A stretch of DNA of 64,000 nucleotides. It comes from Nitrospiraceae bacterium (lineage in GTDB: Bacteria; Nitrospirota; Thermodesulfovibrionia; UBA6902). The DNA lies in the NCBI GenBank assembly GCA_020356065.1, contig CP070632.1, positions 620,490 through 684,489 on the forward strand. The letters run 5' to 3'. The position numbers were made by a program, and so were the translations under genes. Shown here piece after piece: positions 1,562 to 19,704 of the stretch. The first letter of the stretch is position 1; every line of letters begins with the position of its first letter. The notes under the pieces are model-generated. The model was not told the DNA's origin, did not search any database, and worked only from the letters and a program-made list of their open reading frames with translations.

Positions 1562-2437
1562 TTATGTTATTGAGGAGACCCGGGATAACAGGTATTCCTT
1601 GAATTCATCTTTTACCCCCTTATTTTTCAGGGCCAGTTCAACGGTTGCCTTCAGGTAGCCTACCTTGTCACCGCCGTCATACCTTTTTCCCTCAAAAAGA
1701 TAGCCATACACAGGTTTTCTTTTTAACAGGATCTTTAACGCGTCAGTCAGCTGGATCTCTCCGCCCTTTCCAGGGGGAGTTTTCTGGATAATGTTAAAAA
1801 TATCCGGCGTTAATATGTATCTTCCTATGATGGCAAGGTCTGACGGGGCGGCTGATGCCTTTGGTTTTTCTACCATATCACTTATTTTATACACATTCCT
1901 TCTGACTTCTTTACCGGCTATGACACCGTAGCGGTGTATTTCCGATTTTGGGACACGCTGAAGTGCCAGAACAGTTGCATTGTGCCTGTTATAAATTTTG
2001 ATCATATCTCCAAGGAGATTGTCATCAGGATCAATTATATCATCACTCAGGATAACTGCAAACGGTTCATCCTTGACAAAAGGCTGTGAACAGAGGATTG
2101 CATGTCCGAGCCCAAGGGGTTCTCCCTGTCTGATGTAAGCAAACTGGTGCTGTGCAAGCTGCTGGATCTCTTTGAGAATGGCATTCTTGCCTTTGCTCTT
2201 CAGGTTTTCTTCGAGTTCCCATGCAACGTCAAAGTGGTCCTCGATGGCCCGTTTTGATTTCCCGGTAATCACAATATATTCCTTAATCTTGCATGCCTCG
2301 GCTTCCTCAACAGCATACTGTATCATCGGTTTATCTACAATAGGGAGCATTTCCTTCGGCGATGCTTTCGTGGCCGGTAAAAACCTCGTTCCGAGGCCGG
2401 CTGCCGGAAAGACCGCTTTCCTTACTTTCTTGACCAT
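1562..2437 (-). CDS. galU: UTP--glucose-1-phosphate uridylyltransferase
   Basis: Makes UDP-glucose from UTP and glucose-1-phosphate, feeding polysaccharide and LPS synthesis in the cytoplasm. The 291-residue length is normal for GalU. The N-terminal nucleotidyltransferase signature is intact (VFPAAGLGTRFLPATKASPK), as are the downstream GLGHAILC and ILSDDIID motifs that place the nucleotide and metal. A GTG six bases further upstream (2443) is in frame, but it overlaps the Shine-Dalgarno AAGGAG. The ATG at 2437, with about 6 nt spacing, is the better start. The stop lies 12 nt before lon on the same strand. Confidence 0.95.
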   Translation of the reverse strand: MVKKVRKAVFPAAGLGTRFLPATKASPKEMLPIVDKPMIQYAVEEAEACKIKEYIVITGKSKRAIEDHFDVAWELEENLKSKGKNAILKEIQQLAQHQFAYIRQGEPLGLGHAILCSQPFVKDEPFAVILSDDIIDPDDNLLGDMIKIYNRHNATVLALQRVPKSEIHRYGVIAGKEVRRNVYKISDMVEKPKASAAPSDLAIIGRYILTPDIFNIIQKTPPGKGGEIQLTDALKILLKRKPVYGYLFEGKRYDGGDKVGYLKATVELALKNKGVKDEFKEYLLSRVSSIT

Positions 2438-15948: not shown

Positions 15949-15969
15949 TTGCTGGAAAGGAGGATAGTA

Positions 15970-16239
15970 ATGTCAGAAAAAGAACACATCCCTTTACCTA
16001 AGAATACAAAAGCTTATTTCTGTGCTGACTGCGGAGCTGTTGCTCTTGATGCCAATAATATCTGCAAGGTCATGGGCCAGGGAACAAAAGCTGAGTGGTG
16101 TGGCATCAAGGGATCAAAACCGCCGTCATTCTGTCATAACAAGACACATACTGACCGATGGCAATGTGATAATTGTGGACAGATATCGGTGAATCCGGAA
16201 CTTCTGTGTAAACCAGAGAAAATGCCGGAATCCGAATAG
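15970..16239 (+). CDS. Small zinc-ribbon-like protein
   Basis: 89 residues with two CxxC centres: AYFCADCGAVALDANNICK (from residue ~16) and WQCDNCGQISVNPELLCKP (from ~60), with further Cys/His between. Each centre looks like a half of a treble-clef or zinc-ribbon site. The same YFC-x2-CG...LCKP pattern occurs in the protein at 19034, so the two are paralogues. AAAGGAGG 6 nt upstream fixes ATG 15970 rather than the TTG at 15949. It follows the FKBP gene closely and may be co-transcribed. Function is unknown; metal binding is inferred. Confidence 0.72.
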   Translation: MSEKEHIPLPKNTKAYFCADCGAVALDANNICKVMGQGTKAEWCGIKGSKPPSFCHNKTHTDRWQCDNCGQISVNPELLCKPEKMPESE

Positions 16240-16377: not shown

Positions 16378-17072
16378 TTACTCGATTATCACTTCCCTGA
16401 CCTCATTCAGCAGATGTTCACTGTCGATCTGCTTTAACCGTTCGAGCATATATTTCCTGTATTTTTCATGTCCACCAAAGATATCAAGAATAAACCCCTT
16501 ATTGTCACAGATGGAAAATTTCTCTTTCCCACATAATCGGGAAAACTGCTCCATCTATACCTCTCAAGAAAATCTATCGAAGTTGAACTTCGATAATTCA
16601 GATACAGAGGATTTGTGTGGATGTAAAAGGGCAGGTGTATGAAGTGTGATTCCCTGTTTACCAGAACAGCTTTGAACCTGCCCTGAAAAAGCCCGCCCAC
16701 GCGATCATATTTCTTGTTGAAATAATTGGTATAACCAGTGCCGAGTTTCTGCATAAATTTAACAATACCGTTGTCCCTCGTCTGCCTGACAATCAGGTGG
16801 TAATGGTTGGGCATCAGGCTAAAGACCAGAACTTCCACGAGCAGCTTTCTCGGTCCTGTGTCTCTATTGACACACAGTCTCTCAACGCTCTGGCTTTTTG
16901 AATTGAAATAATAATTAAGGTTGGCGACCTGTTCTTCGTTATTAAACTCGTAAAGACAGTGAACAAAGCGGAAGTAGTCCTTCTTATCCATAAAAATATG
17001 CCGCTTCTCTACCCCCCGATTGAAGATATGATAAATATGATCATTTATAAACACAGGTTTCTTCATGATCAT
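16378..17072 (-). pseudogene. REP-associated tyrosine transposase (Y1_Tnp/RAYT), frameshifted
   Basis: RAYTs are single-copy HUH-type transposases that act on REP palindromes. Residues are typical: start KKPVFINDHIYHIFNRGV, catalytic-site segment LMPNHYHLIVRQ with the HxH pair, and GTGYTNYFNKKYDRVGGLFQ with the nucleophile tyrosine region. The intact frame breaks near 16520-16530: after PDYVGK the frame runs into FPSVTIRG and stops at 16434. A -1 shift restores EKFSICDNKGFILDIFGG, HEKYRKYMLERLKQ and onwards to a stop at 16378-16380. A lost G in a GGG run explains it; an assembly error cannot be excluded. ATG 17072 or 17066 could start it. Palindrome C lies 5 bp upstream and palindrome B lies within the coding region. 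Confidence 0.85.
16575..16595. repeat. REP-like palindrome, copy B (inside the transposase gene)
   Basis: The same 21-bp palindrome as copy A, here translated as part of the transposase (NYRSSTSID), between the conserved IHTNPLYL and RYRWSSFPDY segments. Confidence 0.85.
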
Positions 17073-18538: not shown

Positions 18539-18570
18539 AAAAAAAGCCCCCTGCTCAGCAGGGGGCTTTT
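18539..18570 (-). terminator. Intrinsic terminator of the cold-shock gene
   Basis: Perfect stem AGCCCCCTGC / GCAGGGGGCT with a 3-nt loop, followed on the minus strand by a run of seven T. It lies 10 bp past the stop of the csp gene. Confidence 0.9.
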
Positions 18571-18579
18571 CAGAGTTGG

Positions 18580-18780
18580 TTAATTTTTAACTACATTAAT
18601 AGCCTTGGGACCTTTTGGACCATCTTCGATCTCAAAGCTGACAGAGTCGCCTTCAATAAGGCTCTTGAATCCATCGCCAGATATGGAAGAATAGTGAACG
18701 AACACATCGCTACCTTCAGCTCTTGAAATAAATCCAAATCCTTTGGATTCGTTGAACCACTTGACTGTTCCGTTGATCAT
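18580..18780 (-). CDS. Cold-shock domain protein (CspA family)
   Basis: A 66-residue single-OB-fold RNA/DNA chaperone. RNP1 is KGFGFI and RNP2 is VFVHYS; the start [13 protein letters not shown] and end [10 protein letters not shown] are typical. CspA-family proteins melt RNA hairpins and act as antiterminators. AGGAGG is present about 11 nt before the ATG. The gene has its own promoter (18909-18937), a ~120-nt leader containing a terminator-like hairpin (18840-18874) and a strong terminator downstream. This arrangement suggests leader-level control. Confidence 0.97.
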
Positions 18781-18839
18781 TTCCAGATTAACCTCCTAAC
18801 TTTAAACTAAAGTATCAGAACGACGACCCTGTAAAGATA

Positions 18840-18874
18840 AAAAAAGACCACAAAGCTGAAAGTCTTTGAGGTCT
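18840..18874 (-). terminator. Terminator-like hairpin in the csp leader (candidate attenuator)
   Basis: On the minus strand, an 11-bp stem with one mismatch (AGACCTCAAAG / CTTTGTGGTCT) and an 8-nt loop is followed directly by six T. It begins about 28 nt after the predicted transcription start and ends ~60 nt before the csp ATG. It has the form of an intrinsic terminator, yet sits upstream of the gene. Confidence 0.65.
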
Positions 18875-18908
18875 GGTCTGCTACAAAAACTTCTGAAACT
18901 TCATTTAA

Positions 18909-18937
18909 ATCCTAACATTAAGAAGATTAATTGTCAA
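18909..18937 (-). promoter_or_regulatory. Sigma-70 promoter of the csp gene
   Basis: Reading the minus strand: TTGACA (18937-18932), a 17-bp spacer, then TAGGAT (18914-18909). The -35 is perfect and the -10 is 4/6. The predicted start is near 18902. Confidence 0.65.
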
Positions 18938-19033
18938 GATATTTTATACGGATTCATAGTGTAATAAAACATTTTTATTCAAACATTTTGGAGCTATAAT
19001 AAAACAGAGTCATAACAGCAGGAGGAGAATTAA

Positions 19034-19225
19034 ATGATTAATAAATATGATCAGCAATGTATGGGTGGTGATGACTGTAAAGAAGAGGAGCATCTCTGCA
19101 AATTAGCCAGAAGATGCGAGCCTGACCAGATCCGGGAGATCATTAGAGATGCGAGATATTTTTGCAGAAAATGCGGCAGGTCAGCACATGAAGCAGATAA
19201 CCTGTGCAAGCCGGTTGATTTGTAG
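19034..19225 (+). CDS. Small CxxC protein, paralogue of the 15970 gene
   Basis: 63 residues. The C-terminal half, YFCRKCGRSAHEADNLCKP, repeats the YFC-x2-CG...LCKP pattern seen twice in the protein at 15970. The N-terminus adds C-x5-C and further acidic/Cys residues (QQCMGGDDCKEEEHLCK), so one zinc or iron-sulfur site is likely. GGAGGAG stands about 7 nt before the ATG. A TATAAT at 18995-19000 may be its -10. It is divergent from csp. Function is unknown. Confidence 0.72.
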   Translation: MINKYDQQCMGGDDCKEEEHLCKLARRCEPDQIREIIRDARYFCRKCGRSAHEADNLCKPVDL

Positions 19226-19233
19226 AAAAAATA

Positions 19234-19704
19234 TTATTTTCGTAACGCTGTACTGATAATGAGTAATACAACGCCATCAGCCAGCAGAAGAAGATTAAGA
19301 CCTGCGCTTATGCCATGGAGTTTTGCAAACCGTTTTCTCAACGATGAATCCTCTGCTTCACTTTCAAAGGAATGGATCTGATTTTTTACCTCTTTCACAT
19401 CAGGGTGAAGTTTAAATGTCACGAATATATTTATAATCAGGGCGAGCACAATCAGGAGCAGAGAAAATCTATGTCCCGATTTTGCGAAAGATAATCCCGC
19501 CAGGAGCACAAGTAAAAGGGCAATTACAGACAGGATCAGATTAAACCAGAAATAGCCGGGGAATAATACACCGACAATATTGCCTGCCATGTCCCTGCTG
19601 AATGACTTGAAAATAACAGGGGTTATAATGAATGTATAAATGGTTATCCCGCCTATCCAGAACGACAGGACCAGGTTATATATGATGTGCATGGTAGTAT
19701 TCAT
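19234..19704 (-). CDS. DUF4149/TMEM205-like membrane protein
   Basis: 156 residues with four predicted membrane segments: residues ~8-30 (NLVLSFWIGGITIYTFIITP), ~45-67, ~75-95 and ~130-150. The pattern and the conserved polar loop HPDVKEVKNQI between helices 3 and 4 fit DUF4149. No catalytic motif is visible and no function is known for the family in bacteria. It faces the 19034 gene tail-to-tail, 8 bp apart. Confidence 0.75.
   Translation of the reverse strand: MNTTMHIIYNLVLSFWIGGITIYTFIITPVIFKSFSRDMAGNIVGVLFPGYFWFNLILSVIALLLVLLAGLSFAKSGHRFSLLLIVLALIINIFVTFKLHPDVKEVKNQIHSFESEAEDSSLRKRFAKLHGISAGLNLLLLADGVVLLIISTALRK

Follow-up and report, generated by a model that had tools for sequence, protein, structure and literature searches.

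A conserved leader RNA with a terminator hairpin and a long-range helix precedes csp genes of Nitrospirota: a candidate transcription attenuator

In the stretch of DNA analysed here (the window, 64,000 nucleotides), a terminator-like hairpin lies between the promoter and the start codon of a cold-shock (csp) gene, raising the question of what such a signal does ahead of the gene. The csp gene (18580..18780, ATG at 18780) encodes a 66-aa cold-shock domain protein (PF00313, 102.6 bits), and it is preceded by a Shine-Dalgarno sequence, AGGAGG (SD; 18792..18797), and followed by a strong intrinsic terminator of 14 pairs (18541..18571). These features, like all those of the leader described below, are on the minus strand. 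The sigma-70-like promoter (18909..18937) is composed of TTGACA (18937..18932), a 17-nt spacer and TAGGAT (18914..18909), with a TG upstream of the -10, and matches 10 of the 12 consensus positions. Transcription probably starts at about 18902, where the 5' element of the leader begins (GAAGUUUCAGAAGUUUUUG, 18884..18902). A start at this element is suggested by the promoter position, since 6-9 nt separate the best -10 from the element in 59 of the 96 leaders from relatives. The 5' element is an imperfect direct repeat, GAAGUUU-CA-GAAGUUU, whose left half is the 5' strand of a long-range helix (P1) and whose right half is the 5' strand of a proposed antiterminator (AT). Next come the terminator hairpin (T; 18845..18874), in which the arms AGACC-U-CAAAG and CUUUG-U-GGUCU enclose an 8-nt loop (ACUUUCAG), and a U-run of six T directly after it (18839..18844). 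The last part of the leader is a 3' element (UUCUGAUACUUUAG, 18807..18820), the 3' strand of P1. The next minus-strand gene upstream of the leader ends at 19234.

The first-pass annotation had described an 11-bp hairpin followed by six T between a promoter and csp. The layout, the promoter and the six T were all found as described, and the stem was corrected to 10 bp, its 11 stacked positions including one U.U mismatch. Neither the two conserved elements flanking the hairpin nor P1 formed part of that description. A simple terminator scan of the window did not list this hairpin (18874..18845), probably because the mismatch breaks the stem rule of the scan. The folding energy of the 68-nt window leader was ordinary (z -0.95, with 27 of 200 shuffles as good), and another fold of the leader gave z -0.53; since neither value is significant, folding energy was dropped as evidence for the leader.

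Homologues of csp were detected in 60 of the 61 genomes searched (the window's own and 60 relatives). Upstream of the fetched csp copies a common layout was found, which consists of a promoter, GAAGUUUCAGAAGUUUUUG, 10-20 nt, a hairpin (GGCCaCAAAGACUUUUAGCUUUGuGGCC) with its U-run, a further ~20-25 nt, UUCUGAgACUUUAGUUUA and AAGGAGG. From 28 csp leaders a covariance model (R1) was made, with the hairpin as its sole structure. It matched 183/230 genomes of the class Thermodesulfovibrionia (Nitrospirota), belonging to 99 of 115 genera, and this conservation indicates that the hairpin did not arise by chance. In a phylum sample that included other classes, 158 of 395 genomes were matched, and in two further phyla R1 matched 3/4 genomes (phylum of genome G458) and 12/198 (phylum of genome G460). 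In a pattern scan of named species genomes, nearly all of the matches listed were Nitrospirota. The others among the matches listed were a Schekmanbacteria record (L101) and two records labelled Deltaproteobacteria (L094 and L121), with the leader ahead of their csp genes; the two further phyla named above were examined around these records. Four R1 matches (E <= 0.001) are present in the window's own genome, corresponding to three csp genes, out of six cold-shock domain genes, and to a gene for a ~125-aa protein, here named the csp-partner gene. Over the window's family as a whole (37 genomes), separate totals of 201 matches from the csp search and 143 from R1 were obtained.

The hairpin and its U-run, scored by a script that demanded a minimum of 5 T among the 9 bases following the stem, were found in all of the 105 non-redundant leaders (109 representatives minus 4 low-score or reverse-strand copies). 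The T at alignment columns 86-89, within the U-run, is conserved at 95-100%. The lower stem of T varies freely, and its upper stem and loop are invariant; changes on both sides were observed in 7 of the 11 pairs, with 96.1% of cells paired. A stable stem is thus found directly before the U-run, as in intrinsic terminators, and a conserved terminator stem in the leader is backed by covariation, as in attenuators. The proposal that an intrinsic terminator stands ahead of csp, where it would probably control read-through, is strongly supported by this conservation and covariation.

The second helix, P1, connects the 5' end of the transcript with the 3' element just upstream of the SD; in the window 18902..18891 pairs with 18807..18820, and the helix is also part of the minimum free energy (MFE) fold of the window leader. 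It was evaluated in alignment A4 (102 leaders, 101 of them distinct), made with R1, a model blind to P1. With P1 and T drawn on A4, 85.8% of cells were paired and both-side changes were found in 15 of 24 pairs, the covariation score being 0.255, as compared with 0.193 for shuffled alignments (0/500 reach the observed value) and 0.08-0.13 when the structure was slid. For P1 alone, 8 of 13 pairs showed changes on both sides. An alignment-independent swap test, covering the 97 of 105 leaders with a usable 3' region, gave a mean of -9.44 kcal/mol with the own partner and -7.36 kcal/mol with swapped partners (0/1000 permutations). Of the 94 full-length leaders, 82 contain P1 in their MFE fold. The predicted T stem and P1 are therefore both supported by compensatory changes.

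Two leaders have lost the terminator and retained P1. In the first (L008, from genome G002 of the same genus, 1710-1773, minus strand), which precedes a csp gene whose protein is 98% identical, T is deleted and the 5' and 3' elements are kept. In the second (L225, from genome G008), P1 is kept with compensated changes (AAGUUUCGGGA/UCCCUGAGACUU). These two losses indicate that attenuation is not indispensable and that P1 serves a separate function.

The proposed antiterminator would be formed by the right-hand half of the 5' element together with the left-arm and loop region of T. In the consensus the two are complementary over 12 consecutive pairs, a length attained by 24 of 100,000 shuffles. 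In the window this helix has 10 bp, between 18893..18884 and 18868..18859, the latter segment being CAAAGACUUU. The 5' block (columns 12-23) is 91-100% conserved in the 101 distinct leaders. This block and the second invariant one (columns 57-69) have the same extent as the complementary segments, and conservation falls at both borders. Overall covariation was absent, with 92.6% of cells paired as compared with 93.1% in shuffled alignments, and 2 double-changed cells as compared with 11.1; the swap test showed no own-partner effect for AT (107/1000 permutations). Covariation was seen at one position only, because the helix is nearly invariant and its rare changes are seldom compensated. This position links U2 of the 5' element with A8 of the hairpin segment, located in the loop. 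Among the 180 of 183 leaders that could be parsed, U2 was present in 6 of the 9 leaders with A8 and in 1 of the 171 others (Fisher p 1e-8, uncorrected for relatedness). Five of the six U2/A8 leaders belong to one Nitrospirota family and the sixth (L263) to another phylum, so that the link may reflect only two evolutionary events, and a pseudoknot, in which only the loop is paired, would give the same signal.

The relative strength of AT and T was evaluated in 83 leaders, the other 22 of the 105 having been skipped as their sequence did not fit the script anchors. As long as the right arm of T is absent, AT is predicted to form in 81 of the 83. Once the right arm is present, the mean probability of T is 0.87-0.89 and that of AT is 0.03-0.09 from 10 to 50 C. 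When each structure was forced in six leaders (the window's being taken twice), T was more stable at every temperature from 5 to 60 C. AT being the weaker structure at all temperatures, it would form only transiently or with assistance, and a partner or kinetics would be needed for it to prevail.

We consider, with a probability of roughly 0.6, that the ~110-120-nt leader acts in cis as a conserved regulatory RNA and attenuates csp transcription, involving both the competition between AT and T and the helix P1. According to this model, AT would form first in the nascent RNA, by pairing of the right-hand half of the 5' element with the left-arm and loop region of T. When the right arm emerges, T would displace AT and transcription would end after ~63 nt, or T would fail to do so and csp would be transcribed. 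After read-through P1 would form and tie up the 5' end, and T could refold harmlessly within the leader; P1 may also protect the csp mRNA or tune its translation. The weakest step of the model is the trigger. Cold, or the cellular RNA-folding state, could set the balance, and the most likely agent would be free Csp protein that acts on U-rich elements. Either cold or a Csp protein, as suggested in the first-pass annotation, is a plausible trigger.

Naming this trigger gives a special case of the attenuator explanation, in which Csp bound to a single-stranded GUUUUUG heptamer (or to the loop) would prevent AT and terminate transcription of its own gene, and the titration of Csp by misfolded RNA in the cold would allow AT and read-through. 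We regard such an autogenous sensor as possible, although clearly less probable than attenuation as such. The heptamer GUUUUUG is an invariant U-rich part of the 5' element and is one position off the B. subtilis CspB consensus d(GTCTTTG/C), given in a portion of PMC7825780, which also describes the sequence selectivity of Csp proteins as limited. The divergent leaders L203, L205 and L212 have an exact GUCUUUG, and the genes downstream of the leader encode RNA-binding proteins, with few exceptions. Against the specificity of such a site, AT-rich leaders commonly hold U-rich stretches. CspB and CspD of B. subtilis favoured termination at some terminators (in sections of PMC8307031), which agrees with the sensor, whereas Csp proteins of E. 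coli are described as antiterminators. The sign of a Csp effect on the csp leader thus cannot be assumed, and either is possible. A broader version of the same idea, which we hold somewhat more tentatively, is that the leader could be a phylum-scale switch that reads the free RNA-chaperone capacity of the cell, in which Csp, bound to the U-rich 5' end of the nascent leader, would block AT and its own gene, and in the cold structured RNA would titrate Csp, so that AT prevails, turning on csp, the partner gene and occasionally rpsU and a gene for an RRM protein together.

The strongest rival to attenuation is an element for mRNA stability or translation, in which P1 would lock the 5' end against 5'-end-dependent decay and set the access to the SD, and the U-run terminator would be a partial, unregulated brake. 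Outside T, P1 has the best covariation of the leader, its presence in most MFE folds and in the two leaders that lack the terminator would be accounted for, and a 5' stem-loop governs the stability of the E. coli cspA mRNA (according to parts of PMC6239172). What this explanation leaves unaccounted for is the complementarity of the invariant upper stem and loop to an invariant 5' block, together with the strict conservation of the U-run. Access to the SD also lacks a consistent pattern, since over 94 leaders the mean probability of its being unpaired was 0.42 at 10 C and 0.53 at 50 C, and values of at least 0.5 were found in 46 of the 94 at 37 C, giving no clear sign of temperature control. 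The stability element is rather unlikely; protection of the mRNA by P1 need not exclude attenuation.

Cold-shock genes are classic cold-regulated genes and the AT helix is rich in A and U, which would suit an RNA thermometer in which temperature itself shifts the balance between T and AT. The forced folds (six leaders, the window's included) and the 83-leader calculation described above both favour T over the whole range of temperatures, and temperature did not flip the two structures in this model, which covers the equilibrium of the RNA alone; a thermometer is accordingly improbable. Slightly less probable still is that the terminated ~63-nt leader acts as a small RNA, whose free 5' half would pair in trans with 3' elements in the mRNAs of other csp genes. 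The four leaders of the window's own genome, all of them short and with a terminator, would provide such a set, but P1 pairing is leader-specific and swapped partners fit worse, which argues for action in cis. A chance hairpin, or a terminator of the upstream minus-strand gene, would be compatible with the ordinary folding energy, and is refuted by the cross-genome comparison, since a promoter intervenes and the layout is kept in at least three phyla at different loci, leaving this explanation a negligible probability.

The genes behind the leader were inspected in 168 distinct leaders, which were found by the RNA model or by pattern and not via csp. By motif, 152 of them are directly before csp, 5 run off the locus, 3 precede the csp-partner gene, 1 precedes rpsU, 1 precedes a gene for an RRM protein, and 6 were classed as other. 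Reading these six by eye showed a csp with a masked start (L174), a broken csp followed by rpsU (L096), the csp-partner gene in two cases (L069 and L190, the latter from the window's own genome), a csp-partner gene further downstream (L155) and a PhoU-like gene (L161). The leader is therefore almost always located before csp, and rarely before rpsU, a gene for an RRM protein or the csp-partner gene. At one locus (L063, 1501-2084, minus strand), two leaders on the same strand lie within 600 bases, one before csp and the other before rpsU.

The csp-partner gene is often found immediately 3' of csp or directly behind a leader; examples are L190 1611-2027 (plus strand), L004 1072-1440 (minus strand) and L173 3978-4364 (minus strand), among many more. 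Its protein family has invariant cysteines (C68 and C73, C101), and an N-terminal helix followed by mostly beta structure. Nothing above the Pfam cut-off was detected for this protein (the best was DUF7398, E 0.089), and neither an NCBIfam family nor a PDB sequence match was found. Its predicted model (pLDDT 84) gave no confident fold match, the best Foldseek E being 0.046 and the VIA Z at most 5.8. The leader would mark a candidate regulon, small in size, to which this conserved partner protein belongs.

No Rfam 15 family matched the leader. The cspA family in particular gave no match at the gathering threshold over the whole window and was absent from the 9 hits that 18760..18960 gave at E <= 10, so that the leader is not assigned to it. 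No description of the csp leader was found in the literature searched, outside of which lies a 2017 study of 224 candidate RNAs, and in a term search, the main texts of PMC8632094, PMC2864571 and PMC6429828 contained neither csp nor cold shock nor Nitrospirota. Judging from sequence comparison, we rate the leader as a probable RNA family absent from Rfam 15, of a known attenuator kind, found before the gene family that the cspA 5' UTR also serves. The E. coli cspA UTR has long-range pairing. The Rfam cspA family, to which the cspA of Agrobacterium is also assigned (in a part of PMC3738593), resembles our leader in being a long structured csp 5' UTR with control after initiation. Our leader differs in being shorter, in having a conserved intrinsic terminator with a U-run before the gene and in its unrelated sequence elements, the E. 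coli UTR being described as a thermosensor of translation and stability (in portions of the sources, PMC6239172 among them). With attenuators controlled by riboswitches or proteins it shares a promoter, a short leader, an intrinsic terminator and a competing complementary segment upstream; it departs from them in that AT is nearly invariant and predicted to be weaker than T, and in having an extra helix, P1, that can form only after read-through. Antitermination by the CspA family of E. coli and Csp-dependent termination in B. subtilis are also comparable, since in both a Csp protein alters the read-through of terminator hairpins (for B. subtilis, in sections of PMC8307031), a role that is a candidate one here. 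Those terminators are in other operons, whereas here a dedicated conserved leader stands before csp itself. The sensing of cold and RNA-folding stress is poorly known outside the classic model bacteria, and a short conserved leader before hundreds of csp genes, mostly of uncultured Nitrospirota, offers a handle whose terminator, antiterminator and closing helix can each be put to the test.

Within the class, the family f13 departs from this picture, since the nine genomes fetched have one csp each, with an unrelated leader that lacks the terminator. Upstream of these genes (L231-L234, L227-L230 and L236) is a different conserved leader, whose short hairpin is CCUGCCGUAGGUGG-like and lacks a U-run. 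A probe for thermophily in this family gave a tRNA G+C of 0.61-0.63 in four of its genomes and of 0.58-0.60 in six others, values too close to decide with 3-10 tRNAs each; 16S was found in just 4 of 18 genomes.

Elsewhere in the window, two small Cys-rich ORFs, alike in look, are located on the plus strand at 19034-19225 and 15949-16239, the former without a Pfam match. On the minus strand, the ORF at 16434-17072 is presumably a REP-associated (IS200-like) transposase, judging by its motif.
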